Source: a virus. Taken from it: 64,000 nt of DNA. A program made the translations under genes and the position numbers. This document shows, piece by piece, positions 12,344-62,514 of the stretch. Where the stretch lies: positions 49,690 through 113,689 of the IMG/VR virus record IMGVR_UViG_3300022752_004330, one strand, 5' to 3'. The notes beneath the pieces were generated by a model. That model did no database searches. It saw nothing but the letters and a program-made list of their open reading frames with translations, and was not told the origin of the DNA. Within the stretch, counting starts at the first letter, position 1. Each line of letters opens with the position of its first letter.

Positions 12344-14842
12344 TTATCTCCTATACTGCTGTTCTATCATTTCTTGATGCCTTGCATCTTGAGCTAGATT
12401 ACGTAATGCTCTAACATTATCTATTGTACGTTGGTTACGATATATTTCGCGTGGTGTATAAAATGCTGCATCTTTTAACACCAAAGAAGCATAAACATTA
12501 AAACCTTGAGGGGCTAGGGCAATGGTCTCTATACCGATACCACCGGCAAGTTCATTATTGGCTACATTTCTATTCACGCTAGATAATTCTGTTTTTGGCT
12601 GATTAGAATCAGTCATTAATATACGTCCTTCAACTATTGACGTTATTGGATTTGTTCTATTAGTAATGAAATTAGCAGGATTCACTATAGAATCTAATTC
12701 TGTAGTTTTTATTTCAACTGGATTTACCACAGTGGACTGCGTAATAGTACTTGATTCAGGTATTATTACACTGGCAGGTGCGGGCGCTGAATCTGTCATT
12801 GGTATTGTTGGTCTAAACACATTGGTTACCTGCGGACGATTGTCAATTACCGCTAGGTCAACTTGTGGTACAGTCATTAACATTGGTTCTTGCTTAGGTG
12901 TCTGTACTATGTCATTACCCTGTGGTGATTGATAGGGCGTAATTATCGCTGCTACGGTTGTTGTTTGCGTGACAATATTTTGTTGTGGTTCAGGCGCTCT
13001 AACTTGAGAGATCAATGACCCTGTATTTGTAGGTTCGTTAGGCATTACAATTTCTACTGGTGTTGAAGTTTGTCTTTGTGCTATTGATAACTGTGGTTGA
13101 AGTGCAGCAGAAATTGAGCTTAATGTTGTATTGGTAACAGGTCCTAAATTCATCTGCGCTGCCATGGTATTAACACTGTTGGTAGTCATTGGAACATTAG
13201 CAGCTTGAGCGGCGTCAGCAGCAGCATCTGAGGCCGCTGCACCTTGCTGTTGGTTAGCGTCTGCTACAGACACAGCCTCCGATCTTGCGGCATCGGCACG
13301 AGCAATAGCTTCATTTCTAGCATTTTCACTCGCTCTTTGTGCTATAGTTTGCTCTCTACGCTGATTTGCCTGTACAAGACTTAGGGCAAATTGTGTATTG
13401 GATCTAGTCGCAGATGGTTCATTACTGGCACTAGTGTTTACCGCAGTTGCTACATTAACAGAGGGTGTAGCACCGTTGGCATTTTCTATAGTAACAGTGA
13501 TTGCACCGCCTGGGGCAGATGAGCTAGAGCTAGTAGTTGCTGGTGTTAGAGCAGCTATGCGTTCTTGTTGTGCCTTAACATCTGCTATGACTTGAGTCAA
13601 GGTTGATTGAAAATTACTACAATTAGGACTATATAAACCATTAGTGTAACAAGGATCAGGAGTCCAGATAGGCCTAGTCCAACCGACCCAACCAAAATGA
13701 TTCCATACATCACTGGCCCACCATTGAACAGATCCCATGTCTAAACTATTCTTACTTTCAGTGAACAAATGCCTAGAACTAAAACTACCAGCATTATTAT
13801 TACCAGATACATACCATTGATTTTGAAACATAGTAGTATTGTTCTTATCACTTATTCTAAAGTTTATATTACCGCCACCATCGGTACGCCAATCTGTACA
13901 CCAAAACAAAAAGGTATTATAACAAGCACCGTAATTATACCAATTGAATCCGTAGTCGTAGCCGTGCAATACCACACCTCCGCCAATGTGTGGCAAGGAT
14001 TGAGCTATGTTATAACTATAATAAAATGTTGGACTTTTGGCTCCTTGTAGAACATTAGAAAATCCGGCACAACTGGAATTAAATGCAGGATTTAATATAC
14101 AAGGATCTACACTATATATGGCACGGATGTATGCGTCTTTTACTTGAGGTCCATAACAGTTTGGATTACATGCCCAAAATCCCTGGTCACTTCCAATGAT
14201 TTCATAATTTACAGCACCGGCCTGAGCTAAAGGTTTTGCCCCAGCAAAGGTAACTGTTTGTGATAAAGTTTGCCAGCTGGGGTTATAGGGACTATTACCA
14301 TCGTTTATGTTTTTAAGCCCTAACTGATGTGTATAAAAAGTAGGGGAACCTGTCGATGGATAGTAACCAACTTCCACTCTTAGATTGTCCTGTGTTGGAT
14401 TGGCAATAAACCCTGCCTGAGCTGTTCCATCACAATTAGTTCCTATGCTATTAGCACAGGGAAATCTATATTTTAAGCCATACATGAATCCAGTAACAAA
14501 CACTGCACTAGAGTTTAAATATCCATGATTAAAACTACTTAAATTGACACTAGGGTTTTGGCCGAGTGATTCTACACCATAACCAAAAGTATAGCCATCT
14601 ACACCAAATGAACCCCCTGGACTGACCGGTGTCCAGGTAGGGCTACCAGTTGTTACAGTCCATCCCGACACCGATGATATAGAACCATTTGATATAAGAT
14701 TGCCTGTTACACTATCAATACTATAACCACTAGGCGTGTTAGGCGAAGTCTGAGCATAGACAGCACCCAAAGCCATGACGATGATAATTAAAAGGAAGAT
14801 TAAAAATCCTCGAGTATGCTTATACCCGTAGTTTGGTTCCAT
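12344..14842 (-). CDS. large secreted virion-type protein, 832 aa
   Basis: The N-terminus has a basic stretch, then a long hydrophobic helix (about 13-30) ending VYAQ, fitting a signal peptide or anchor. About residues 35-395 are aromatic-, Gly- and Cys-rich beta structure with several Cys-containing turns (DPCILNPAF, DPCYTNGLY). About 400-560 are Ala/Gln-rich helix, and the rest is Thr/Pro/Val-rich linker with a charged helical end. The start overlaps the stop of the upstream Asn-rich protein (TAATG), so the two are made together. The signal and low-complexity design suggest an exported, perhaps virion-displayed or envelope-spanning protein. Function unknown. Confidence 0.75.
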   Translation of the reverse strand: MEPNYGYKHTRGFLIFLLIIIVMALGAVYAQTSPNTPSGYSIDSVTGNLISNGSISSVSGWTVTTGSPTWTPVSPGGSFGVDGYTFGYGVESLGQNPSVNLSSFNHGYLNSSAVFVTGFMYGLKYRFPCANSIGTNCDGTAQAGFIANPTQDNLRVEVGYYPSTGSPTFYTHQLGLKNINDGNSPYNPSWQTLSQTVTFAGAKPLAQAGAVNYEIIGSDQGFWACNPNCYGPQVKDAYIRAIYSVDPCILNPAFNSSCAGFSNVLQGAKSPTFYYSYNIAQSLPHIGGGVVLHGYDYGFNWYNYGACYNTFLFWCTDWRTDGGGNINFRISDKNNTTMFQNQWYVSGNNNAGSFSSRHLFTESKNSLDMGSVQWWASDVWNHFGWVGWTRPIWTPDPCYTNGLYSPNCSNFQSTLTQVIADVKAQQERIAALTPATTSSSSSAPGGAITVTIENANGATPSVNVATAVNTSASNEPSATRSNTQFALSLVQANQRREQTIAQRASENARNEAIARADAARSEAVSVADANQQQGAAASDAAADAAQAANVPMTTNSVNTMAAQMNLGPVTNTTLSSISAALQPQLSIAQRQTSTPVEIVMPNEPTNTGSLISQVRAPEPQQNIVTQTTTVAAIITPYQSPQGNDIVQTPKQEPMLMTVPQVDLAVIDNRPQVTNVFRPTIPMTDSAPAPASVIIPESSTITQSTVVNPVEIKTTELDSIVNPANFITNRTNPITSIVEGRILMTDSNQPKTELSSVNRNVANNELAGGIGIETIALAPQGFNVYASLVLKDAAFYTPREIYRNQRTIDNVRALRNLAQDARHQEMIEQQYRR

Positions 14843-16311
14843 TATTTTTCAGCCACAACCTGCTTTGGTATTAGATCTGGGTTCTTGGACCAAAACTCTC
14901 TAGCCTGCTCACCTATTAATCCGTTTACAGGGCATGGTGTACCTGCTGCCATCATAGCGTCCCATACACGACGATCCTGACACATGGTAGCCACAGCAGC
15001 CACTTTCATACCCATGTCGTATAGAGTCTTGCTGAGTTTCAATCTTTCACAATTCATGTCACGATTGGTAGCGCCAAAACTGATACCTAATACCTGTGTT
15101 TGAGCAGCTCCAGAAACACCGGTTACACATAGGTCTGTGCCCATGCTCATCATGGCAGGAGCAATAGCAGTTGGTGGTGGTTGTATTACCTTTTGTGTAA
15201 TTTCACTCTTGTTTATATTGGTGTTGACATTGTCAGTTTTTACCGTTTGGTCACTGGTACTTACACTGGTGCTAACATTGTTGTTATTATTGGTGCTGAC
15301 ACTGGTTGAGTTATTGATGTTACGGTTAGTCATGTCGCCAGTTTGAATATTGTTATTAGTGTTAGTGCTTTGACTGGTAGTAGTAGCTGTGGTGGTGTTG
15401 ATGTTACGATTGGTCATGTCGCCAGTTTGAATATTGTTATTGGTATTAGTAGAAGTTGCGGTGCTAGTTGAATTGTTTATGTTCCGATTGGTCATGTCGC
15501 CAGTTTGTATATTGTTGTTGGTGTTGACAGCCGTACTGGTGCTAGTTGAATTGTTTATATTACGGTACGTCATGTCACCAGTTTGAACATTATTATTGGT
15601 ACTAGTATTAGTGTTGACATTGTTGTTATTATAAGTCACTGTACCACTCATGATATTTCTGTTAGTATTATCACTTGAAGTTACATTGTTATTATTATAA
15701 GTCATTGTGCCAGAATTGATATTGTTGTTTGTATTCACTGTGGTAGCGGTACTTGTGCTGGCATTGTTGTTATTATAAGTCATTGTTCCAGAATTAATAT
15801 TATTGTTGATATTGGTAGTGGTGGCGGTACTAGTACTGGTATTGGTGTTGACGTTATTATTGTTATTCGTCATTGTTCCTGAATTAACGTTGTTATTATT
15901 ATAGGTAACTGTACCTGAATTAACATTATTATTGTTATAGGTCATTGTGCCAGAATTGGTATTTTGGTTAATATTTGTTAACGTACCGCTTTGAATATTG
16001 TTATTTGTATTAACGTTGGTACTGGTACTGGTATTATTGTTATTGTTGGTATTCGTGCTAGTGCTATTCACAGTACTTGTAGAAGTGTTTGTACTAGTGC
16101 TGGTGCTGAAATTGTTAGTGGTTACTGCACTGGTGCTGTTACTGGTTGAGTTAGTGTCAACCAAACTCTTGCTATCGTAAGTCCCCTGATTAATTGGGTT
16201 TATTGTACTAGTGGTTGTGCCACTTGTGGTGCTTTGAGTGCTTGTATTCTGTGCTTGAACTATTCCAGCAGTCAGTAATAATATCACAAGTGATATTAGT
16301 TTCTTGATCAT
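14842..16311 (-). CDS. secreted Asn/Thr-rich repeat protein, 489 aa
   Basis: A signal peptide (MIKKLISLVILLLTAGIVQAQ; cleavage likely after QA) precedes about 340 residues of Asn/Thr/Ser repeats built from NNNNVNSGTMTYNNNN-like and NTNNNIQTGDMTNRNIN-like units, a design seen in beta-solenoid proteins. About residues 385-489 form a compact conserved-looking domain with four Cys (DLCVTGVSGAA, NRDMNCERL, MCQDRRVWDAM, TPCPVNGLIG). The next gene starts on its stop codon. An extended surface or periplasm-spanning fibre is inferred. The composition is unlike its neighbours. Confidence 0.75.
   Translation of the reverse strand: MIKKLISLVILLLTAGIVQAQNTSTQSTTSGTTTSTINPINQGTYDSKSLVDTNSTSNSTSAVTTNNFSTSTSTNTSTSTVNSTSTNTNNNNNTSTSTNVNTNNNIQSGTLTNINQNTNSGTMTYNNNNVNSGTVTYNNNNVNSGTMTNNNNNVNTNTSTSTATTTNINNNINSGTMTYNNNNASTSTATTVNTNNNINSGTMTYNNNNVTSSDNTNRNIMSGTVTYNNNNVNTNTSTNNNVQTGDMTYRNINNSTSTSTAVNTNNNIQTGDMTNRNINNSTSTATSTNTNNNIQTGDMTNRNINTTTATTTSQSTNTNNNIQTGDMTNRNINNSTSVSTNNNNNVSTSVSTSDQTVKTDNVNTNINKSEITQKVIQPPPTAIAPAMMSMGTDLCVTGVSGAAQTQVLGISFGATNRDMNCERLKLSKTLYDMGMKVAAVATMCQDRRVWDAMMAAGTPCPVNGLIGEQAREFWSKNPDLIPKQVVAEK
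15295..16060 (-). repeat. imperfect Asn/Thr-rich coding repeats
   Basis: The DNA consists of diverged, interleaved repeats rich in gtt, att and tta triplets, encoding the SGTMTYNNNN and TGDMTNRNIN units of the secreted repeat protein. Unit length varies, so this is not a clean tandem array. Confidence 0.7.
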
Positions 16312-16786: not shown

Positions 16787-18268
16787 CTAATTAAAAGTAG
16801 CAGCCATAGGAACCTTACTCTGTTGCAGTGCTGCATTTTGGTTAAATTGTGCGGGAGTTTGTAGTTCTGGCTTGTTTTTGTCTTGTTTAAAAGTTTTTGG
16901 TTTAGGTGTTATAGAGACTAATTCGTCCAACATTTCACCAGATTCAAAATAGTTTCGCATATATCCACCTGTTACCTGACTTCTAAATTGGCAAAGTTTT
17001 ACAGGTTTTTGATTAACATTGGCTACATCTGGCCTAACAAATATCTGTATAGTCCTTCCTCTGCCTTTAGAAGGTACTTTTACAGCGAATAGGTCCAAGG
17101 ATTTCATTGCATCTACAAGACTATCACTGTATCTTAAGATTTTATATGCGCCGCTAGGAATAGTATCGTTTACCTTAACAATCTCTACGTCTTCTAAACT
17201 TTCGCCTCTAGCAAATATATTAGCAGCATTGGCTAATTGTTTAACTATTTGTGACTCTTTACCAGGATTTTGCATTTTCATTAGTGCATCTATCTTCGGG
17301 AATAAAACAGTGTCATAAAGTTTGAATAAGTTAGCTTCTAATTTTTCTTTGCTAAGTTTAGGATCAAACAATGCCTGTTTATCGGATAGGTCAATATTAA
17401 ACCCGGTTTTAAAGAAATATTGTATTGCATCAAAACTTAGTCCCGAACGCTGACCTAATGTAGCAGACGAACTAGTTTTTAAACTTAATAAAGATACCTT
17501 ACTGCCGTCTATAGTCAACACCATATCGGCCTTGGTGCCTTTTGAGTCGCTTGTTCCATCTGATTTAATTTCTACTAAATTAGTATTAGGATCTTTCATT
17601 ACCCGTGCTACAGCAGCATCTACACTGTCTGATTCATTAACATAACGAACGACACCTTGTAATATACTGGCTAGATCTCCGGGTAGTGGTCCTACTCCAT
17701 AGTCCATTAAAGCCTGAGCACTCTTAGCAGGAATTACAGCAAGAAAGTTTAAATTATCTGGTTTAGATTTAGTTGTATATTGAATTGTTTTTTCAACTTG
17801 AAAGTCCATAGTGCTGCGAGATTCAGCAAACTCCGGGCTTGCTTCGAACATCATTCTTCTTACTTGATCGCTAGAGACGTCTCTGTTTTGATTAATAAAC
17901 CTTGCCGCTACTGCTAACCCCATGAATAATTCATTCAGGTGTCCTGCGTTATAAAGTTTCTTGCCCATTAAACCAGTAAATGCGCCGCTTTTAAATATAG
18001 CACCCCAAGATCCTTTGACAGTTTTTCCATTACTTAAAATGAATTCTGGCGTGGCATTAAGGTCACCTCCGCCTACAAAATTAATTAGATTATCTACAGT
18101 ATCTCTTGTTAACTCAACTGTATTCCCATATGTGCCTCGCTTGTTAGGCACAATTTCGACAGGACCTTTATCTGCTAGGTTGGCTAAAATTTCCGCATAT
18201 TTTCTGCCATGTTTAAGTAATTCAGATTGGCTTAATCCTGCTTCGTATAAAAAATCACGGGCTCGCAT
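16787..18268 (-). CDS. hypothetical protein, 493 aa; possible PD-(D/E)XK-like fold
   Basis: A soluble protein starting MRARDFLYEA, a leader resembling several others in this window. About residues 105-270 contain HLNELFMGLAVA (Glu113), then KADMVLTID (Asp248) and SLLSLKTSSS (Lys264), an order that could be the Glu...Asp...(x)LK core of a restriction-endonuclease-like fold, though the acidic residue two before the Lys is Ser. The C-terminal 60 residues are Pro/Gln/Lys-rich. It ends with TAG. CATAAATA lies 7 bp before the start, suggesting late expression. The nuclease idea is weak. Confidence 0.6.
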   Translation of the reverse strand: MRARDFLYEAGLSQSELLKHGRKYAEILANLADKGPVEIVPNKRGTYGNTVELTRDTVDNLINFVGGGDLNATPEFILSNGKTVKGSWGAIFKSGAFTGLMGKKLYNAGHLNELFMGLAVAARFINQNRDVSSDQVRRMMFEASPEFAESRSTMDFQVEKTIQYTTKSKPDNLNFLAVIPAKSAQALMDYGVGPLPGDLASILQGVVRYVNESDSVDAAVARVMKDPNTNLVEIKSDGTSDSKGTKADMVLTIDGSKVSLLSLKTSSSATLGQRSGLSFDAIQYFFKTGFNIDLSDKQALFDPKLSKEKLEANLFKLYDTVLFPKIDALMKMQNPGKESQIVKQLANAANIFARGESLEDVEIVKVNDTIPSGAYKILRYSDSLVDAMKSLDLFAVKVPSKGRGRTIQIFVRPDVANVNQKPVKLCQFRSQVTGGYMRNYFESGEMLDELVSITPKPKTFKQDKNKPELQTPAQFNQNAALQQSKVPMAATFN

Positions 18269-18275
18269 AATAGAA

Positions 18276-18283
18276 TATTTATG
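18276..18283 (-). promoter_or_regulatory. late-promoter-like CATAAATA
   Basis: Seven bases before the ATG at 18268, overlapping the end of the bilin reductase gene. The match is one base from the T4-like late consensus. Confidence 0.4.
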
Positions 18284-18950
18284 CTGTTTCCGGAAAGAGA
18301 ATTTCGTCTACAAACTGCTTAATTATAGATTCTTGTACACCCATAGCTATCATACTTTTTATGACTTGTGGATTTTGTTTTTGGTAATAACAATAACGAT
18401 CCTGTGCCATGTGAAAATCTGCACCACAGGTCTGTGTAAGGCCTACATTAGCTAGATAGAAATCTAGTGATTTTTTAGCAGTTTCACATAACAAATCAAT
18501 TTCTTTTTCATCACTGATATTACCTGCTGCTATCATTGAAGGACTAAAAATTTGTCTAGCCCAATCCGGTAGTGTTCTAGGTTTAGTCCATTCTAAAGAT
18601 TCTACGTGTTTTGTGAACCACAACATCATGTCATGATTTCTATCCCCAGCTGCGCTAAAATCATGAAAGGCTCCTGTGATTTTATTACGGCCGCATATAA
18701 CATCAAATCCCCAAATAGGACTAGGATCGTTGTAATGTGGGAATATTGTAGAATGTAAAATGTAGATTCCATGCGAATCACGCTTGTCTACTATTTCTAT
18801 GTGTGCTCTACGATATCTTAGACTAGACCAAAGTGTATTTTCCCAATCGTAATTTTCGTTGAGTTTACCCTCTATTGCATCACCTGTGTCGTTAAATCTC
18901 TTTTCTAAATATCGTGCTAATTCTTCAATTTTGTTCCAAATCACTGTCAT
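18279..18950 (-). CDS. ferredoxin-dependent bilin reductase (PcyA/PcyX/PebS family)
   Basis: The 223-residue protein has the family core: LHSTIFPHYNDPSPIWGFDV (65-84) followed by GRNKITGAFHDFS, matching the central strands of PcyA and PebS; Asp83 sits at the catalytic Asp (Asp105 of PcyA). The end, QDRYCYYQKQNPQVIKSM then EILFP, matches the family's YCxYQxxN and FLF pattern. These enzymes reduce biliverdin with electrons from ferredoxin. Which product is made (phycocyanobilin, phycoerythrobilin or another) cannot be read by eye. GAGGG lies 6 bp before the ATG. It overlaps the heme oxygenase gene by 26 bp, so substrate maker and user are coupled. Confidence 0.88.
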   Translation of the reverse strand: MTVIWNKIEELARYLEKRFNDTGDAIEGKLNENYDWENTLWSSLRYRRAHIEIVDKRDSHGIYILHSTIFPHYNDPSPIWGFDVICGRNKITGAFHDFSAAGDRNHDMMLWFTKHVESLEWTKPRTLPDWARQIFSPSMIAAGNISDEKEIDLLCETAKKSLDFYLANVGLTQTCGADFHMAQDRYCYYQKQNPQVIKSMIAMGVQESIIKQFVDEILFPETA

Positions 18951-19467
18951 AGACCCTCATCATTTTTATTGCCCAGTCAAAGGCTGTGTTTGCTTCGTCT
19001 GCAAGACTGTCATCTAATTTGGCTCTAAGATTTGTCATAAGTTCTTTAGGATTATCAAATTCTAAACTAAGGTGAGATCCCGGTACAATACGTTTAATTG
19101 CCTGACCTCCAAACATATCTCCCATATGCCACGTATATAAATGTGCTAGAATCTTTCTAGCATTGTGTTGAATTGATTTGATATAATCATGGTATGCAAT
19201 AGTGGTAGGACGTATTTCGTATACTTTTAAATCACTATTATTAGCATTAAAATCTTGAGCCAGAGCAGGTGCTCTAGTTATTCCTCTAAGATCTTCTAAT
19301 AGCAAATTTTTTAGAGCGGCAGTTTCTATTGTATTGTAGAAAATTGCCTTTTGATATGTCCAGTCGGTCCACAAAGTTAAAGGCAGGGTCCTTGCGAACA
19401 CTGCCTTCATAAACGATGTAGACTCTGCTTCTTTGTGCTTATCAGCAGTTAAATCCTTTAGAGCCAT
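18925..19467 (-). CDS. ho1: heme oxygenase (HO-1 type)
   Basis: A 180-residue heme oxygenase: LTADKHKEAE (6-15) holds the proximal heme-ligand His11, and HLYTWHMGDMFGGQAIKR (109-126) carries the distal-helix glycines (GDxxGGQ) over the heme. It opens heme to biliverdin, CO and iron. Length is close to the bacterial norm of about 200. It overlaps the bilin reductase downstream and lies 8 bp after clpS, in a run hsp20-clpS-ho1-reductase starting at the sigma70-type promoter at 20322-20350. Iron release, CO or pigment production could each be the benefit; the reductase next door favours making a reduced bilin. Confidence 0.9.
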   Translation of the reverse strand: MALKDLTADKHKEAESTSFMKAVFARTLPLTLWTDWTYQKAIFYNTIETAALKNLLLEDLRGITRAPALAQDFNANNSDLKVYEIRPTTIAYHDYIKSIQHNARKILAHLYTWHMGDMFGGQAIKRIVPGSHLSLEFDNPKELMTNLRAKLDDSLADEANTAFDWAIKMMRVYDSDLEQN

Positions 19468-19475
19468 TTAGTTTC

Positions 19476-19784
19476 TCATTCTGGTTCTATCTTAATTACC
19501 AAAGGAAAGTTATTTGCTCTGGCAAGATTGGATGCATCTTGTTCTTTTTGCTCGGCAATTTCAAAGGGATAAATCCCTGCTACTCCGCTGCCTGAATGAT
19601 GAACTTCCATAGTTATTTGCATGGCTCTATCTTGTGTATGCCTAAACACAGTTATAAGAACACTGACAACGAACTCCATTGGCGTGACATCATCGTTACA
19701 AAAAATAACTTTAAATTTACCAGGTTCTTTAATTTTGTCAATTTGTTTTGCTTTTTTTACAACTTTTTCTGTAATAGGTTCCAT
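19476..19784 (-). CDS. clpS: ClpS, Clp protease adaptor
   Basis: The 102-residue protein matches ClpS along its length: CNDDVTPMEFVVSVL (29-43) gives the NDD-TPMEFV strand and helix that bind N-degrons, and MEVHHSGSGVAGIYPFEIAE (59-78) holds the HHxGxG turn. ClpS steers N-end-rule substrates to ClpA and restrains ClpA from taking ssrA-tagged proteins. Here it lies between hsp20 and ho1. With the phage ClpX (32991-34229) and tmRNA it could shift host Clp proteolysis toward ClpX; that link is inference. No clpP or clpA is in the window. Confidence 0.92.
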   Translation of the reverse strand: MEPITEKVVKKAKQIDKIKEPGKFKVIFCNDDVTPMEFVVSVLITVFRHTQDRAMQITMEVHHSGSGVAGIYPFEIAEQKEQDASNLARANNFPLVIKIEPE

Positions 19785-19802
19785 AGATTTTATCCAGGTA
19801 AT

Positions 19803-19825
19803 AGTGGGGGGCGATATCCCCCACT
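19803..19825 (-). terminator. hairpin after hsp20
   Basis: An 8-bp G/C-rich stem (19803-19810 with 19818-19825) with a 7-nt loop, in the 54-bp gap between hsp20 and clpS. There is no U-run, so it is more likely an attenuator or stabiliser than a strong terminator. Confidence 0.5.
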
Positions 19826-19838
19826 AATATTTAACACA

Positions 19839-20264
19839 TCAGTTAATATTAATAATTCTAGGTTTTAAAGATTCTGGAATTTGTCTATTAACCTGAATGG
19901 TTAGGATACCATCTTTACAAGTGGCTTCTCCCACAATCATATGTGCTTCAAGAGTGAAAACTCTTTCGAAATCTCTAGTAGCTAACCCTCTATGTAGATA
20001 TTGTTTGCTATCAGTTTCTTCTTCTTTTTTCTTTCCAATAATACTTAATTGGTCTTGATCTACTTGGATAGTAATATCTTCTTTGTTGAACCCTGCAATG
20101 GCAATTTCAATTAAAAAAGTGTCATTTTCAGTTTTACAAATATTATACGGGGGATAGTTACTGGCAGAATGTTGCCAACGATTTTCAAAATCGTTAAAAA
20201 TTCTATCGAACCCGATAAGTGCTTTGTTAAAAGCATTTGTGTCAATACGCATTAATTGTGTCAT
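19839..20264 (-). CDS. hsp20: Hsp20-family small heat-shock chaperone (IbpA-like)
   Basis: The 141-residue protein has an N-terminal helix (FDRIFNDFENRW), then an alpha-crystallin domain (about 36-130) with YNICK, EIAIAGFNKEDI, LSIIGKK, LHRGLATRDFERVF and a CKDGILTIQV strand, close to E. coli IbpA/B. It holds unfolding proteins for refolding, probably by DnaK. Its leader has a consensus promoter (20322-20350) and a hairpin pairing TCTTGCTT with the AAGGAGA ribosome-binding site around a bulged G, as in ROSE thermometers. DnaK lies directly upstream. Confidence 0.92.
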   Translation of the reverse strand: MTQLMRIDTNAFNKALIGFDRIFNDFENRWQHSASNYPPYNICKTENDTFLIEIAIAGFNKEDITIQVDQDQLSIIGKKKEEETDSKQYLHRGLATRDFERVFTLEAHMIVGEATCKDGILTIQVNRQIPESLKPRIININ

Positions 20265-20269
20265 AATTT

Positions 20270-20289
20270 TCTCCTTTTATTAAGCAAGA
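20270..20289 (-). promoter_or_regulatory. ROSE-like RNA thermometer hairpin, hsp20 leader
   Basis: In the mRNA, UCUUGCUU (20289-20282) can pair with AAGGAGA (20276-20270), leaving the single G of UUGCU bulged, across a 5-nt loop. Pairing a UYGCU element to the Shine-Dalgarno with a bulged G is the defining feature of ROSE thermometers. A second, longer hairpin (20294-20316, TGCGGC/GCCGCA) precedes it, as in ROSE leaders. Melting was not tested. Confidence 0.65.
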
Positions 20290-20293
20290 TAAT

Positions 20294-20316
20294 TGCGGCC
20301 TCACCTGAGCGCCGCA
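20294..20316 (-). promoter_or_regulatory. upstream hairpin of the hsp20 leader
   Basis: A TGCGGC/GCCGCA stem extended by CTCA/TGAG, lying 5' of the SD-masking hairpin. There is no U-run, so termination is unlikely; it fits the auxiliary stem of a thermosensor. Confidence 0.55.
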
Positions 20317-20321
20317 GTTTT

Positions 20322-20350
20322 ATTTTAAACTAACTGTGTCTGTCTGTCAA
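20322..20350 (-). promoter_or_regulatory. sigma70-type promoter for hsp20-clpS-ho1-bilin reductase
   Basis: TTGACA (20345-20350) and TAAAAT (20322-20327) are 17 bp apart. The TGA stop of dnaK lies inside the -35 hexamer. Confidence 0.75.
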
Positions 20351-22242
20351 ATCTTTGTTTTATCAGTTTCTTTTGTTTTTTCTTTGGCTTCTACATCAAC
20401 AAACTCTTGTCCATTTGTTTCTGGAGCGGCGGGAGTTTTACTACGTTGTATATCATTAAAAGTATTACTTAATTTTAAACTTGATTCATCTATTTTTTCT
20501 TTATTATCTTCCGCCAGTGCTTCTCTTAATTCTTTTATGATATCTTCAACTTTAGCTTTTTCCTCTGCTGTAAATGTTGAATCAGCTTGTTTTAAAACAC
20601 TTTCCACATTATGTATCATACCGTCTGCCGAATTTCTTGAATTAATTTTTTCTATTTCTTTTTTATCGGCTTCAGCATTTTCTTCAGCTTCTTTAATCAT
20701 TCTTTGTATTTCTGCTTCTGTCAATCCGCTGTCACTCTTAATTGTTATTTTATTTTCTTTTCCTGTGTTTTTATCTTTGGCACTTATATGCATAATACCA
20801 TTAGCATCTATGTCTACTGTAACCTCAACTTGGGGAACACCTCTTGGTGCAGGCTCAATACCTTCTAGATTAAATTCTCCTAGCAGTTTATTATAGGCAA
20901 ACATTTCTCTTTCACCTTGTGCGATTTTGATTGTGACTGCAGGCTGATTATCTTCAGCTGTGCTAAATGTTCTACTTTGTTTCGTAGGAATAGTTGTATT
21001 TTTTTCTATAAGTTTATTAAACACACCACCTAGTGTTTCAATGCCTACACTTAGCGGAGTTACATCTAATAAAAGGACATCTTTCCTATCGCCTGATAAT
21101 ACAGCTCCTTGTATAGCGGCACCTACTGCTACTGCTTCATCTGGATTCACATCTTTTCTAGGCGACTTTCCAAAAATATCAGCAACTGCTTCTTGAACTT
21201 TAGGCATACGAGTCATGCCTCCTACAAGAATTACTTCATCTATATCACTTGGCTCGCATCCTGCATCTTTCAATGCTATTCTACAAGGTTCTAAACTACG
21301 ATCAATAAGATCTTCAACCAGATTTTCTAACTTTGTTTTTGTCATTTTAATATTCAAATGTTTAGGACCATTTGAATCTGCTGTGATATACGGGAGATTT
21401 ATATCAGTTTGTTGACTACTACTTAACTCAATCTTTGCCTTTTCTGCTGCTTCTTTTAACCTTTGTAAAGCCAACACGTCTTTTGTAAGATCAATACCTT
21501 GTTCTCTCTTAAACTCATCTACTAAAAAGTCCATTATTCTTTGGTCAAAATCTTCACCACCTAAGAATGTATCACCGTTTGTAGATAATACTTCGATTTG
21601 TTTATCTGCTTCTAACTGAGCTATCTCGATAATACTTATATCAAACGTACCGCCACCTAAATCGTATACAGCAATTTTTCTATCTTTTTTCTCTTCTTTA
21701 TCTACACCATAAGCCAACGCAGCAGCAGTGGGTTCATTAATGATACGAAGAACTTCCAAGCCAGCAATACGGCCAGCATCTTTAGTGGCTTGACGCTGAC
21801 TATCATTAAAATAGGCTGGAACAGTAATAACAGCTTCTGTCACTTCATGACCTAGGTAATCTTCTGCTGTTTTTTTCATTTTACGTAATACTTCAGCACT
21901 AACTTGAGGTGGCGCTACACGTTCACCATTGGCCTCAATCCATGTATCTCCATTGTCTGCTTTAACAATTTTATACGGCATGAGATTTATTTCTTTTTGT
22001 ATAGATTGCTCTGTAAATTTCCGCCCAATAAGACGTTTTGCGGCATAGATAGTGTTTTTTGGATTGGTAACGGCTTGGCGTTTTGCGCTGGCACCTACAA
22101 GAATTTCTTTATCAGTGTATGCTACTATGCTTGGGGTAGTACGTGCGCCTTCTGAATTTTCTATGACTTTTGCTGTTCCATTTTCAACAACAGCGACACA
22201 GCTATTAGTGGTACCTAGATCGATACCTATTACTTTACTCAT
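20347..22242 (-). CDS. dnaK: DnaK (Hsp70) chaperone
   Basis: A full-length Hsp70 of 631 residues; the start at 22242 follows AAAGGAG, preferred over an ATG eight codons earlier. The ATPase domain shows [38 protein letters not shown] and [11 protein letters not shown]; the substrate domain has [16 protein letters not shown]. The lid helices and an acidic/Lys-rich tail follow. It refolds proteins with DnaJ and GrpE, neither seen here, so it must use host partners. The leader carries a ROSE-like hairpin matching that of hsp20, and GATAAATA lies about 77 bp upstream. Full-length DnaK is unusual in phages. Confidence 0.97.
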
Positions 22243-22249
22243 TTTGAAT

Positions 22250-22268
22250 TCTCCTTTGTTAAGCAAGA
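22250..22268 (-). promoter_or_regulatory. ROSE-like RNA thermometer hairpin, dnaK leader
   Basis: UCUUGCUU (22268-22261) can pair with AAGGAGA (22256-22250) with the G bulged and a 4-nt loop, the same design as upstream of hsp20. Two more hairpins precede it (22275-22287, GAGCA/TGCTC; 22291-22312, GTAAAAA/TTTTTAC). Confidence 0.62.
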
Positions 22269-22274
22269 TTATTT

Positions 22275-22312
22275 GAGCACCATGCTCGATGTAAAAACCT
22301 ATGGCTTTTTAC
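22275..22312 (-). promoter_or_regulatory. two auxiliary hairpins in the dnaK leader
   Basis: Stems at 22275-22287 and 22291-22312 lie between the late-promoter-like box and the SD-masking hairpin. They may help the thermosensor fold; the second could also act as a weak terminator. Confidence 0.45.
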
Positions 22313-22318
22313 ATTTTT

Positions 22319-22326
22319 TATTTATC
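22319..22326 (-). promoter_or_regulatory. late-promoter-like GATAAATA before dnaK
   Basis: It overlaps the stop of the upstream gene, about 77 bp before the dnaK ATG. No sigma70 hexamer pair is visible for dnaK, so this may be its promoter. Confidence 0.4.
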
Positions 22327-37680: not shown

Positions 37681-38087
37681 CTTGATTTCTCCGATAATTC
37701 TTTATAACCTGCCCAACTTGGATGTATTGCGTCTGATTGTAGTTTTTGTGTTTTTATAATAAAATCTCCGCGGGTTTTTGCTATAGATTCTACTATTTTA
37801 TTGATGTCAGGCTTACAAAATTTGTCATTACAAGGGGGTAAAATCCAATAAACACGATCAGCATTAATTCTACTTCTTATAGATTCAAGTTCCTGTTTCG
37901 TTTGAACTCCCTTGTGATCATTAGTTCCTAGACTGATAACTACACTACGTGCTGTGAGATCGCTATCGATAAACTTACGATTCCATTGCCAAGTGTTGAA
38001 TCCACCCACACTTATACTTTTACATTCCTTGCGTTCATTGGCTACACCAACAGCAATACTATCACCTAGTATAAGGCAGTCTAACAT
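37677..38087 (-). CDS. SGNH/GDSL-type hydrolase, 136 aa
   Basis: LGDSIAVG (Ser10), GGFNTW, SLGTNDHK (Asn56) and SDAIHPSWAGY (Asp119, His122) are the SGNH blocks with a full Ser-Asp-His triad. At 136 residues it is very compact. No signal peptide. It lies between ahpC and ahpD with ATGA/TAATG overlaps on both sides, an odd neighbour for peroxidase genes. Its ester substrate is unknown. Confidence 0.85.
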   Translation of the reverse strand: MLDCLILGDSIAVGVANERKECKSISVGGFNTWQWNRKFIDSDLTARSVVISLGTNDHKGVQTKQELESIRSRINADRVYWILPPCNDKFCKPDINKIVESIAKTRGDFIIKTQKLQSDAIHPSWAGYKELSEKSR

Positions 38088-38647
38088 TATAGAGTTTCCC
38101 CACCTATGCTGCGATTACAAGCACAGAGCTCGCCAGTTTGAAGTGCGTCTAATACACGCAGTGTTTCTTCAGGGCTACGACCTACATTAAGATTGTTTAC
38201 TGTTACATGTTGAATAACATTATCAGGATCGATAATAAATGTAGCACGTAGAGCAGCGCCTGCCGGTGCATAAAATACGCCTAGTTGTTCGATAAGACTA
38301 ACATGACCTCTTTCCTCACCAGGACCATGGCGTGCCGTATCGGCGAATTGAATGTGTGTAATTTTTTGTAGATCTGGATGTGCCTTTTGCCATGCTACTT
38401 TACAGAATTCGTTGTCTGTGGAACCTGTTAACAATACAGCATCACGATCTTCAAAGTCTTTGGCTAATTTATCATAGGCTACAATTTCTGTAGGGCAAAC
38501 AAATGTAAAATCTTTTGGATAATACACTACCACCTTCCACTTACCTGCGAATGACTCGTCTGTAATTGTAAAGAAAGCATCTTCAGGTTGTCCTGGCTTA
38601 ACACCAGTAATTGCAAATTTTGTAACTTTATCGCCAACTGTTTTCAT
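38087..38647 (-). CDS. ahpC: AhpC-type 2-Cys peroxiredoxin
   Basis: The 186-residue protein carries FTFVCPTEI (peroxidatic Cys51) and the C-terminal ELCACNRS (two resolving Cys), the same CxC end as the AhpC that partners AhpD in actinobacteria. ATG at 38647 follows AAAGGAG. It removes hydrogen peroxide and organic peroxides, plausibly protecting ribonucleotide reductase and phage DNA. It is coupled to the SGNH gene (TAATG) and is next to the tmRNA terminator. Confidence 0.95.
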   Translation of the reverse strand: MKTVGDKVTKFAITGVKPGQPEDAFFTITDESFAGKWKVVVYYPKDFTFVCPTEIVAYDKLAKDFEDRDAVLLTGSTDNEFCKVAWQKAHPDLQKITHIQFADTARHGPGEERGHVSLIEQLGVFYAPAGAALRATFIIDPDNVIQHVTVNNLNVGRSPEETLRVLDALQTGELCACNRSIGGETL

Positions 38648-38783
38648 TTTGATCTCCTTTTTGTGTGTGTTGAAAACTAAACAATATTGTATATTGTACA
38701 TTTATTTACAATAGAAATCTACTATAAATTTAAGTTTTTTAATGAATTTTTTTAATAAGGTTAATAGATAATATTAATAGAAA

Positions 38784-38805
38784 AATAGGGCCCTAAGGCC
38801 CTATT
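38784..38805 (-). terminator. terminator after tmRNA
   Basis: AATAGGGCC/GGCCCTATT, 9 bp, loop of 4, followed by TTTC on the minus strand. It ends the tmRNA transcript. Confidence 0.75.
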
Positions 38806-38814
38806 GGTTTGTTG

Positions 38815-39055
38815 GCTTACAAGGTCTTTCCTACCCCGCGGAGGTTACGCCGCTAGGCGAACTTCTCCGAAGTAATCGTCATTTGCGATTATTTGCTTTG
38901 CTAGAATTACGTTCTTCGCCTATCGTGTTGTCCACTCTGTTACTCTTTGCCCTGTCGAAAACCATAGTCACCCCCACCTAAACATACCTCAATACATTTA
39001 GGTGGAGATGGCCGGAGTCGAACCGGCGTCCAGAACACCTTTCTCTTTGCTTCAT
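38815..39055 (-). ncRNA. ssrA: circularly permuted (two-piece) tmRNA
   Basis: On the minus strand the acceptor piece comes first: the T-arm (39011-39027) then the acceptor 3' strand (39001-39010). A short loop (about 38979-39000) joins it to the acceptor 5' strand GGTGGGGGTG (38969-38978) and the D-like arm (38951-38968). The tag frame 38848-38886 encodes ANDDYFGEVRLAA, stop TAA at 38845. The preceding AAATAATC is like the resume context of one-piece tmRNA. The 3' CCA is not encoded. It releases stalled ribosomes and tags nascent chains; the LAA end is a ClpX degron. The outer ends are approximate. Confidence 0.88.
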
Positions 39056-39066
39056 ACAACAATATC

Positions 39067-39261
39067 TTACTTCTTTGGTTCTAATAAATTAAAATGTCTA
39101 CGTATAACAGGAGTAGCGGGCAGATTAACCTGCCACGCTGTATCTGCTATTTCAGCACATTCTTCTGCTATCATTTCTGCAAAAAGTTCTATGCTTTCTG
39201 AGTATTCTACTCCTGCACGATCTGCTATTGCTTTAAGTCTAGCATTAACTGCTGTATACAT
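39067..39261 (-). CDS. small protein with Tyr-Ser/Glu-Cys motif, 64 aa
   Basis: RLKAIADRAGVEYSESIELF then AEMIAEECAEIAD resembles a short helical motif common in phage proteins, there of unknown role. AGGTAAG precedes the ATG at 39261, which overlaps the stop of a possible 29-codon ORF. It lies just upstream of the tmRNA and may share its transcript. Confidence 0.6.
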   Translation of the reverse strand: MYTAVNARLKAIADRAGVEYSESIELFAEMIAEECAEIADTAWQVNLPATPVIRRHFNLLEPKK

Positions 39262-59244: not shown

Positions 59245-61458
59245 ATGATTACAGAGACCGAGAATATGTCTAACAATCCGCACATCAGCGATGTGATCAA
59301 AGAAATGTTAGGCAACCCAAATCGCCGAAGTTTCCTAAAAGGAAGTTCGGCTTTTTTTACGGCCGCAGCAGGTGCTACTTTGGCCAGTTGTGCCAGTGGG
59401 GATGATGATCAATTCACTCGTCCAACAGCCTTAACTTTCCAAGCAGTCCCCAAGAATACAGCAGATAAGATCACACTGCCACCGGGTTATCAATTCACCG
59501 TGCTACATGCTACCGGTGACAGACTCAATGCTTCTATATCAGCCTACTCAAACAAAGGCGCAGAAACAGATGACTGGTCCGCTCGTATCGGTGATCACCA
59601 TGATGGAACAGAACTATTTCACATTGATGCCAGTGGAAAATATACTAAAAATATGACCGACCGTGCCATATTATGTGTAAATCATGAAAGTTCAGCAGAC
59701 GCACATTTCTTCCATCCTAACGGACAGACCAGTAATGGTGTGAATGGTAAGAAGTATGATCAATTTGGTCAGTGGGATCTGGGCACAAGACCTGCTCTGG
59801 AAGCACTGAAAGAAATGAATCATCATGGTGTAAGTATTGTAGAGATCAACAAAGGCAGCGCAGGTTGGGCAGTAAAGTTAGACAGCGCCTACAACCGCAG
59901 AGTAAATGCCCAGACTGTGGCTCGTGTTGCAGGTCCAGCAGCAGAGTTGGCCAATATCAAGGCCCTGCTGGCTACCAAGTATGATCCCACAGGTGCTACT
60001 GCTCGTGGCACACTAAACAACTGCGGAACAGGATATACTCCATGGGGCACATTCCTAACCTGTGAAGAAAACTGGGCCACATATTTTGCCATGCCCAAGG
60101 GCAGTGCTGCTCCAGATGCTCGCATGACACAAACACGTAGTCGTTATGGTGTGCGTAATGTGCCATATGCTGCCACTGCTACCACAGGTAATTCACAAGG
60201 ATGGCACACAGTTACAGATCAGCCAGATACTAATTTTAGATTTAGTCGTTGGGATGTCAGCATCAAAGGTGCTACTGAAAAAGACGACTTCCGGAACGAA
60301 CCACAGACCTTCGGTTACATTGTAGAGATCGATCCTACCCAGCCAAACAGCCAGCCTGTTAAACGAGTGGCCATGGGAAGGACGGCTCACGAAGCCTGTG
60401 TGTTCGGCCGCCTGGAAGCAGGCAAGCCAGTGACATTTTATATGGGCTGTGACAGTCGCAATGAATACATTTACAAGTGGGTCAGCACCAAGACTTGGGA
60501 TCCTGCTGATGTTGGTGGTGGCACAGCCGCTGGTGACAAATATCTCAACGATGGTAAATTGTATGTGGCCAAATTTGCTGCCGATGGTACAGGCATGTGG
60601 ATAGAATTAAGTATCACTAATCCTGCTATTGCCAACTATGCTACTTTCAAGTTTAACAATCAAGCAGAAGTATATGTATTCACTCGTTTGGCAGCAGACG
60701 CAGTAGGTGCTACCAAGATGGATCGTCCAGAGTGGGGTGCTGTGAATCCGCTAAATGGTGAAGTCTATTTCGCACTGACTAACAACTCAGCAAGTAATCG
60801 CACACCAATGACTACTGATGCTGCTAACCCAAGAAGTTATGCTGATCCTGATGGCTTGGTTAGAACAGGCAATCCTAACGGTCATATCATTCGCTGGCGT
60901 GAAGGCACAACAGGTTTAGTATTCCAATGGGATATCTTTGTGTTTGGTTCAGAAGAAGATAATGCTGCCAGCAATATTTCTAAATTGACAGCCAATAATT
61001 CATTCAGTAGCCCAGACGGTTTATGGTTTAGCAAGGCCACAGGCCTGTGCTGGATTCAGACTGACGACGGTGCCTACACTGATGAAGTTCATAATCAATT
61101 GTTAGTGGCTATTCCTGGTCAGGTTGGAGATGGTGGTGCTAAGACTATTACCAACACACTGAGCGGTGCTACTAAGGATCAGGCCACATTTGTTGGTGCT
61201 GAATTAGGTGAGACCAAATTGCGTAGGTTTATGACAGGACCGGCAGGTTGTGAAATCACTGGTATTGCCGAATCAGCAGATGGTCGTGCTATATTTGTTG
61301 GAGTTCAACATCCAGGCGAAGATACCACTGCGGCTTTTTGGACAGGCACTGCTCCACAAAGTCAATGGCCAGGTAATGCTGGTTATGGAACAGCAGGTCG
61401 CCCACGATCAGCAACAATTGTTATCACAAGAGTTGACGGCGGCCTAATAGGCGTCTAA
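59245..61458 (+). CDS. phoX: PhoX-type alkaline phosphatase (Tat lipoprotein)
   Basis: The 737-residue protein has a Tat motif NRRSFLKGSS (26-35) and a lipobox ending at Cys49, and the DUF839/PhoX body: DDWSARIGDHHDG, VNHESSADAHFFH, GVSIVEIN, TCEENWATYFA, HEACVFGRLE and EEDNAASNISK. Conserved Glu, His and Cys side chains bind the Ca/Fe centre. It releases phosphate from organic phosphates at the periplasm or surface. AGGAG 7 bp before the ATG; the Pho-box-like repeat upstream and pstS downstream make a phosphate-starvation unit. Confidence 0.93.
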   Translation: MITETENMSNNPHISDVIKEMLGNPNRRSFLKGSSAFFTAAAGATLASCASGDDDQFTRPTALTFQAVPKNTADKITLPPGYQFTVLHATGDRLNASISAYSNKGAETDDWSARIGDHHDGTELFHIDASGKYTKNMTDRAILCVNHESSADAHFFHPNGQTSNGVNGKKYDQFGQWDLGTRPALEALKEMNHHGVSIVEINKGSAGWAVKLDSAYNRRVNAQTVARVAGPAAELANIKALLATKYDPTGATARGTLNNCGTGYTPWGTFLTCEENWATYFAMPKGSAAPDARMTQTRSRYGVRNVPYAATATTGNSQGWHTVTDQPDTNFRFSRWDVSIKGATEKDDFRNEPQTFGYIVEIDPTQPNSQPVKRVAMGRTAHEACVFGRLEAGKPVTFYMGCDSRNEYIYKWVSTKTWDPADVGGGTAAGDKYLNDGKLYVAKFAADGTGMWIELSITNPAIANYATFKFNNQAEVYVFTRLAADAVGATKMDRPEWGAVNPLNGEVYFALTNNSASNRTPMTTDAANPRSYADPDGLVRTGNPNGHIIRWREGTTGLVFQWDIFVFGSEEDNAASNISKLTANNSFSSPDGLWFSKATGLCWIQTDDGAYTDEVHNQLLVAIPGQVGDGGAKTITNTLSGATKDQATFVGAELGETKLRRFMTGPAGCEITGIAESADGRAIFVGVQHPGEDTTAAFWTGTAPQSQWPGNAGYGTAGRPRSATIVITRVDGGLIGV

Positions 61459-61506: not shown

Positions 61507-62514
61507 ATGAAACGATTTATCGCAGCCGTTGCGACTGCTCTATTCGCAACCCTGGCGCAGGCACAGATTACGGGTGCTGGTGCTACATTCCCCTATCCTA
61601 TCTATGCCAAATGGGCAGAAGCCTATCAAAAACAAACCGGCGTTGGACTAAACTATCAGAGCATTGGTAGTTCAGGTGGTATTCGTCAAATCAACGCAAA
61701 GACCGTGACATTCGGTGCCACAGACGCACCAGTAAAAGGAGAAGATCTTGAAAAACTTGCTCAAATTCAATTCCCTGCCATCATCGGCGGCACGGTGCCT
61801 GTGGTCAATCTGGAAGGGTTTAAGCCAGGTGAACTTCGCATCACAGGACCTGTGCTTGCCGAAGTGTTTATGGGGGACATCACGAAGTGGAATGATCCAA
61901 AACTACAGGCATTGAATCCAGGTAAGAAACTACCAGACCAAAATATCACTGTAGTTCATCGTGCTGACGGATCTGGCACTACTTTCAATTGGACCGACTA
62001 CTTGGCTGTAATCAGTCCAGAATGGGAAAAGCGTGTAGGTCGCGGTGCCGCAGTAAAATGGCCTGCTACCAGTTCAGTTGGTGGCAAGGGCAACGAGGGT
62101 GTTGCTGCTAATGTAAATAGAATCAAAGGCAGTATAGGTTATGTTGAGTATGCTTATGTAAAGAAAAACAATATGAATTTTATGTTGTTACAGAATAAAC
62201 ACGGTGTTTTTGTTGCCCCTGATGATCTTACATTTGCAGCAGCCGCAGCAGGAGCGGATTGGTTCTCGGTTCCAGGAATGGGCTTGAGTATTGTAAATCA
62301 GGGCGGCAAGGATACTTGGCCTGTTACCACAGCCAGTTTTATTATAATGTATAAGGATCCTGCGGATAAAAAGGCCAGCCAAGAAGTTTTAAAATATTTT
62401 GACTGGGCATTTAAGAACGGCAAGAAACTCAGCGAAGAACTTGACTATGTTCATTTACCTGAGAAACTACAGGCAGATATTCGCAGTCGTGTTTGGAGCC
62501 AAATCAAACATTAA
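61507..62514 (+). CDS. pstS: PstS phosphate-binding protein
   Basis: The 335-residue PstS has a signal peptide ending AQAQ, then ITGAGATFPYPIYAKW, YQSIGSSGGIRQI, FGATDAPV, HRADGSGTTFNWTDYL and IGYVEYAY, close to proteobacterial PstS. It binds phosphate for the host Pst ABC transporter; PstABC is not in the window, so the phage relies on the host transporter. It is a well-known phage auxiliary gene in cyanophages. RBS AAAGGAAAATT. Confidence 0.97.
   Translation: MKRFIAAVATALFATLAQAQITGAGATFPYPIYAKWAEAYQKQTGVGLNYQSIGSSGGIRQINAKTVTFGATDAPVKGEDLEKLAQIQFPAIIGGTVPVVNLEGFKPGELRITGPVLAEVFMGDITKWNDPKLQALNPGKKLPDQNITVVHRADGSGTTFNWTDYLAVISPEWEKRVGRGAAVKWPATSSVGGKGNEGVAANVNRIKGSIGYVEYAYVKKNNMNFMLLQNKHGVFVAPDDLTFAAAAAGADWFSVPGMGLSIVNQGGKDTWPVTTASFIIMYKDPADKKASQEVLKYFDWAFKNGKKLSEELDYVHLPEKLQADIRSRVWSQIKH

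Follow-up and report, generated by a model that had tools for sequence, protein, structure and literature searches.

The window, a stretch of 64,000 nucleotides covering positions 49690-113689 of the 113,689-base IMG/VR record IMGVR_UViG_3300022752_004330, held adjacent genes for a heme oxygenase (HO) and a bilin reductase (FDBR) within a block of heat shock and protease adaptor genes. The features of the window considered here were:

16787..18268, minus strand: 493-aa protein of unknown function, PHROG 3560-like
18279..18950, minus strand: FDBR of the viral PcyA/PcyX ('AX') lineage (Pfam, structure, residues, tree)
18925..19467, minus strand: heme oxygenase with the HO-1/HmuO fold (Pfam, HmuO match, AlphaFold, Foldseek)
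19476..19784, minus strand: ClpS, ClpAP protease adaptor, a conserved neighbour (Pfam PF02617, 98.8 bits; synteny)
19839..20264, minus strand: Hsp20, a small heat shock protein whose gene opens the hsp20-clpS-HO-FDBR block (PF00011, PHROG 432; synteny)
20262..20346, minus strand: hsp20 leader, a candidate ROSE-like thermometer with hairpins ending in UCUUGCUUAAUAAAAGGAGA, in which the anti-SD UUGCU pairs with the SD
20347..22242, minus strand: DnaK (Hsp70) (PF00012, 859 bits; leader and start)
22240..22325, minus strand: dnaK leader, with three hairpins and the SD-pairing element shared with hsp20 (UCUUGCUUAACAAAGGAGA)
38782..39107, minus strand: permuted phage tmRNA of the beta_tmRNA type (Rfam match; host clue)

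The gene block, the phage and its host

The HO and FDBR genes lay where the initial annotation had placed them, both on the minus strand and overlapping by 26 bp. ClpS and Hsp20, which it had assigned to the same operon, were confirmed by Pfam, as was DnaK. The start of dnaK was set at the ATG at 22242, which comes after the SD; the TTG at 22266 given in the list of open reading frames is upstream of it. The gene of the 493-aa protein began 10 bp downstream of FDBR on the same strand, and distant homologues followed FDBR in some relatives.

The order hsp20-clpS-HO-FDBR was found on one strand in 48 other contigs, a count that includes some near-duplicates and two MAG contigs, and dnaK stood just upstream of it in 20 of the 48. 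Because it recurred in independent contigs, the HO-FDBR arrangement is not an assembly artefact. Other phages of the family carried HO-FDBR without hsp20, clpS and dnaK; in others FDBR came with an AlaS-like aminotransferase and no HO was detected. The gap from hsp20 to clpS (about 19785-19838) contained a strong, GC-rich hairpin that was conserved in many relatives, and the T4 late-promoter-like TATAAATA occurred near some clpS, HO, hsp20 and dnaK genes. Scans for sigma-70 promoters and terminators gave matches no better than chance.

The record is probably a fragment of a phage genome, so absences from it carry little weight. It contained phage structural, lysis, DNA polymerase, ligase and ribonucleotide reductase genes, and one structural protein had 41-42% identity to proteins of T4-like cyanophages. 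Sequence comparison of the contig with the terminase, sheath and neck proteins of Mosig gave no counterparts, and the virus could therefore not be placed through these proteins. The phage is of a freshwater type and tailed. A 489-aa protein (14842-16311, minus strand) consisted largely of Asn/Thr/Ser-rich repeats (NNNNVNSGTMTYNNNN) of low complexity and is possibly fibre-like. A PhoX-type alkaline phosphatase (59245-61458, plus strand) lay beside a PstS-like phosphate transporter subunit (61507-62514, plus strand), which suggests phosphate-starvation genes in the phage.

The tmRNA at 38782-39107, with the tag ANDDYFGEVRLAA, had beta_tmRNA as its best Rfam model (123.8 bits, cut-off 84). Of 35 related phage records, 19 had a match to the same model, and in 13 of these the score passed the cut-off. 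Mainly on the fit of this one RNA, which is a single line of evidence, the host is probably a betaproteobacterium; of the Burkholderiales-like host proposed initially, the betaproteobacterial part was retained. An AhpC/TSA-type peroxiredoxin-like gene (38087-38701, minus strand), another possible oxidative-stress gene, adjoined the tmRNA.

Heme oxygenase and bilin reductase

The HO (180 aa) matched the Pfam family Heme_oxygenase PF01126 well over the cut-off (62 bits, E 8e-17), and its closest solved structure by sequence was HmuO 1iw0 (E 1e-7). The AlphaFold model (pLDDT 94) was all-helical and matched HmuO/HO-1 in Foldseek, with the proximal His11 and the GDMFGGQ distal helix in place. His11, Gly116, Asp117, Gly120 and Gly121 were invariant across relatives, and Trp113 and Phe119 replaced an Arg and a Ser of HmuO. 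Values of dN/dS were 0.07-0.18 for the HO and FDBR genes (against four relatives, calculable pairs), indicating that purifying selection keeps both.

The FDBR (223 aa) matched Fe_bilin_red PF05996 well over the cut-off (64 bits, E 2e-17) and was closest by sequence, among solved structures, to PcyX 5owg (E 5e-44). Its AlphaFold model (pLDDT 91) had PcyA, PcyX and PebA as best Foldseek matches, so that fold and family profile agreed on the family. The motifs that had been noticed in the two proteins (His11 and GDMFGGQ in HO; Asp83, YCYYQKQN and LFP in FDBR) were all real, and His66 and Asp83 of the FDBR were likewise invariant across relatives. Asp83 corresponds to the catalytic central-sheet Asp105 of PcyA, and the enzyme held the full PcyA triad as Glu52/His66/Asp83 (PcyA Glu76/His88/Asp105). 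Pfam profiles, AlphaFold and Foldseek thus bore out a phage-borne HO and FDBR, with a predicted route from heme through biliverdin to a reduced bilin, and a reductase that keeps its catalytic Asp.

In the residue map, Glu52 occupied the column of PcyA Glu76 and PcyX Asp55, the assignment of Asp55 to this column resting on an inferred 8-residue offset between the 5owg chain and the published numbering. A Pro stood at the position of PcyA Asp220, as in PcyX. In the maximum likelihood tree (100 sequences, without the alphaproteobacterial (Bradyrhizobium) PcyA and CB_2, and with bootstrap not fully settled), all non-cyanophage viral FDBRs and two MAG sequences formed one clade (support 100/99) of 92 rows, which contained PcyX and stood apart from the cyanobacterial and cyanophage PcyA. 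The FDBR of the window belonged to a clade of 43 rows (99/91) separate from the subclade holding PcyX and Mosig. In the diagnostic column, 41 of the 43 members had Glu, as did the next clade, and the PcyX group had Asp. The initial annotation had mentioned an oceanic PcyX branch and proposed a profile search and phylogeny: these placed the enzyme in the viral clade that holds PcyX, and in place of the PcyX signature Asp55 it carried a PcyA-type Glu. Its identification as PcyX was rejected on account of Glu52 and of its position outside the characterised-PcyX subclade.

A freshwater enzyme without Asp55, that of CB_2, makes phycocyanobilin, and the HemO of CB_2 makes biliverdin IXalpha (PMC11480375). 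Because the PcyA triad is kept and because of this CB_2 enzyme, which is likened to the FDBR of the window by published description and not by sequence, phycocyanobilin appears likelier than phycoerythrobilin as the product. Prediction of FDBR products from few residues has explicitly been called unreliable (PMC13193486). By their residue at the Glu/Asp position, the viral FDBRs fall into groups for which different products are predicted.

An initial search of viral contigs turned up 39 relatives (36-85% identity), and at least 478 IMG/VR stretches encoded relatives in a profile scan; given also the published phage cassettes (PMC11480375), the pair is not a rarity. No match was found in plasmids. 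The genome (GTDB) scan gave two loci only, both MAG contigs, one from Neomarinimicrobiota (L082) and one from Rickettsiales (L083), with the hsp20-clpS-HO-FDBR order and the leader motif; they are probably phage contigs binned into MAGs. When 399 genomes sampled from the phylum of the Rickettsiales MAG were scanned, only the MAG itself had the family and the other 398 lacked it. By these scans, viruses carry the family widely and sampled cells only rarely, the patterns of the genome scan having been derived from phage sequences. A bacterial source of the pair was disfavoured, as the two MAG contigs stood alone and both had the phage gene order.

Leaders of hsp20 and dnaK

A leader of three hairpins was common to hsp20 and dnaK, with the final hairpin computed to pair with the SD, and the shared element ended in UCUUGCUUAAYAAA(A)GGAGA ahead of the ATG. 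The leader pattern matched the 113.7-kb record only twice, at hsp20 and dnaK, against 0.05 matches expected per shuffled genome. In the fetched loci all matches (84/84) preceded hsp20 or dnaK, a set that is biased alone, since several loci overlap and loci were chosen for the cassette. In a cassette-independent scan of viral contigs, the 19-base core of the leader preceded hsp20 in 72, dnaK in 5 and groES in 2 of 81 occurrences (groES assigned by eye from the peptide). The leader was also present in loci L002-L141 and in IMG/VR loci L154-L233, with the general form UCUU(G/A)CUU...AAGGAGA.

Hairpin 1 had compensatory changes in 8 of its 10 pairs; the SD-pairing hairpin was too conserved for a covariation test. 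Computed accessibility of the SD in 61 leaders was low and climbed on warming, from 0.09 at 5 C to 0.27 at 45 C, and with the anti-SD stretch shuffled it went from 0.34 to 0.45 over the same range. An anti-SD of the type U(U/C)GCU is the hallmark of ROSE-like thermometers (PMC3669281); both leaders of the window had UUGCU on the SD in the last hairpin. In Rfam, no family reached its gathering score and no ROSE family was listed even at E 10; both leaders gave weak freshwater-2 matches (14 bits, threshold 49.9). No description of the leader was found in open-access literature.

The thermosensor-like leader of the initial annotation was supported, as a candidate, by the conserved SD-pairing hairpin before both genes: in sequence and computed pairing, the hsp20 and dnaK leaders look like a phage-borne ROSE-like RNA thermometer, which would probably gate translation of both. 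If real, a thermometer that phages carry specifically at chaperone genes would be of interest in itself.

Proposed function and comparison with known systems

Sequence and structure supported the families, predicted folds and active-site residues of the two enzymes, their synteny and the conserved leader. From these we infer the activity, the product, the host electron donor, the thermoregulation and the physiological purpose. The reading preferred here, with a probability of about 0.6, is that of an AMG pair in a tailed phage with a probable betaproteobacterial host, in which HO and FDBR would likely produce phycocyanobilin, under ROSE-like gating, for heme turnover under stress. HO would open heme to biliverdin IXalpha, Fe2+ and CO, and FDBR would take four electrons from host ferredoxin to reduce biliverdin, with phycocyanobilin as the most likely product. 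The electrons would probably be host-derived, since 40 viral records contained no 2Fe-2S ferredoxin (Fer2). HO and FDBR are the distal part of the hsp20-clpS-HO-FDBR block adjoining dnaK; direct gating by the leader would concern hsp20 and dnaK, and an effect on clpS, HO and FDBR would depend on co-transcription and translational coupling. Heme turnover during infection-associated stress would release iron and clear biliverdin, keeping HO from stalling; the reduced bilin would be an end product or serve as antioxidant.

The purpose of HO with a bilin reductase in phages of non-cyanobacterial hosts has been described as 'still enigmatic' in their co-occurrence (PMC11480375). Heme turnover during infection-associated stress is our best guess and the most likely use, proposed because the pair sits beside chaperone and clpS genes and the same genome has a peroxiredoxin-like gene at another site. 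The link to chaperones, ClpS and a candidate thermometer points to stress and heme turnover and not to light harvesting. A tentative and rather doubtful extension is that freshwater betaproteobacterial phages share a temperature-gated dnaK-hsp20-clpS-HO-FDBR module for proteostasis and heme turnover, making phycocyanobilin for a non-photosynthetic end (iron release or oxidative protection).

Formation of phycoerythrobilin, as by oceanic PcyX and whichever residue replaces Asp55, is the unlikely outcome for the pair: the nearest solved relative is PcyX 5owg, and Pro at the Asp220 site and the viral clade are common to both enzymes, but the Glu of 41 of 43 clade members at the Asp55/Glu76 site, the different subclade of the characterised PcyX and the phycocyanobilin formed by the CB_2 enzyme speak for the other bilin. 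The bilin might instead serve as chromophore of a host phytochrome, through which the phage would manipulate host light sensing. Phytochromes bind phycocyanobilin, and an island in Bradyrhizobium unites hemO, pcyA, alaS and bphP (PMC11480375); the neighbours here, however, are proteostasis genes and not light genes, and a search of 37 viral records for a phage-borne phytochrome gave no PHY domain, which makes this use improbable. Least probable by far are light-harvesting antennae, as proposed for cyanophages, which carry pcyA and pebS for that use. The cyanophage-like structural protein is in keeping with such a role, but the tmRNA is of the beta_tmRNA type, the FDBR falls outside the cyanobacterial/cyanophage PcyA clade, and related phages, isolated or published, have SAR11 hosts or have been assigned to alphaproteobacteria.

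The HO-FDBR pair and its chemistry are already known in phages and are not new. Published phage pairs comprise the marine hemO-pcyX, the marine and freshwater hemO-pcyA/X-alaS cassettes and that of pelagiphage Mosig; hemO-pcyA/X cassettes, with activity in vitro, occur in phages from marine and fresh waters whose hosts are not cyanobacteria (PMC11480375). Like these cassettes and CB_2, the window encodes both enzymes in a phage whose host is probably not a cyanobacterium, and the CB_2 FDBR also lacks Asp55. It differs from the hemO-pcyA/X-valaS cassettes (PMC11480375) in that its record, probably a fragment, had no AlaS-type aminotransferase (no PF00155 match in 113.7 kb), so that the three-gene cassette was not found; an AlaS-like gene was present in 7 of 40 viral records. 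The pair of the window lies in an hsp20-clpS-dnaK context, whereas ClpS, DnaK and Hsp20 are unmentioned in the main text of that paper, and the host proposed for the CB_2 cassette is an alphaproteobacterial methanotroph, in contrast to the betaproteobacterial tmRNA here.

Pelagibacter phage Mosig EXVC030M likewise has HO directly upstream of its FDBR (PcyX), with overlapping genes, but identity to the window proteins was 36% (FDBR) and 31% (HO), the diagnostic site holds Asp in Mosig and Glu in the window, and the Mosig pair is flanked by 2OG-Fe(II) oxygenases, ferrochelatase and neck genes instead of chaperones. Oceanic PcyX 5owg resembled the window FDBR in fold, viral clade, equivalents of His66 and Asp83 and Pro at the PcyA Asp220 site, and differed in Asp55 and subclade. 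Cyanobacterial PcyA (2d1e, 2g18) shared the fold and the Glu76/His88/Asp105 triad but belonged to a separate clade and has Asp220 where the window enzyme has Pro.

The leaders resembled bacterial ibpA/hsp ROSE-like thermometers (PMC3669281) as multi-hairpin leaders of small heat shock genes with the SD on a U(U/C)GCU-type anti-SD. They differed in being phage-borne and below every Rfam threshold, with a predicted temperature response, and in that many relatives have UUACU or CUCACU. What sets the present case apart is an active site of the PcyA type within a large viral clade, together with its proteostasis neighbours and the candidate thermometer.
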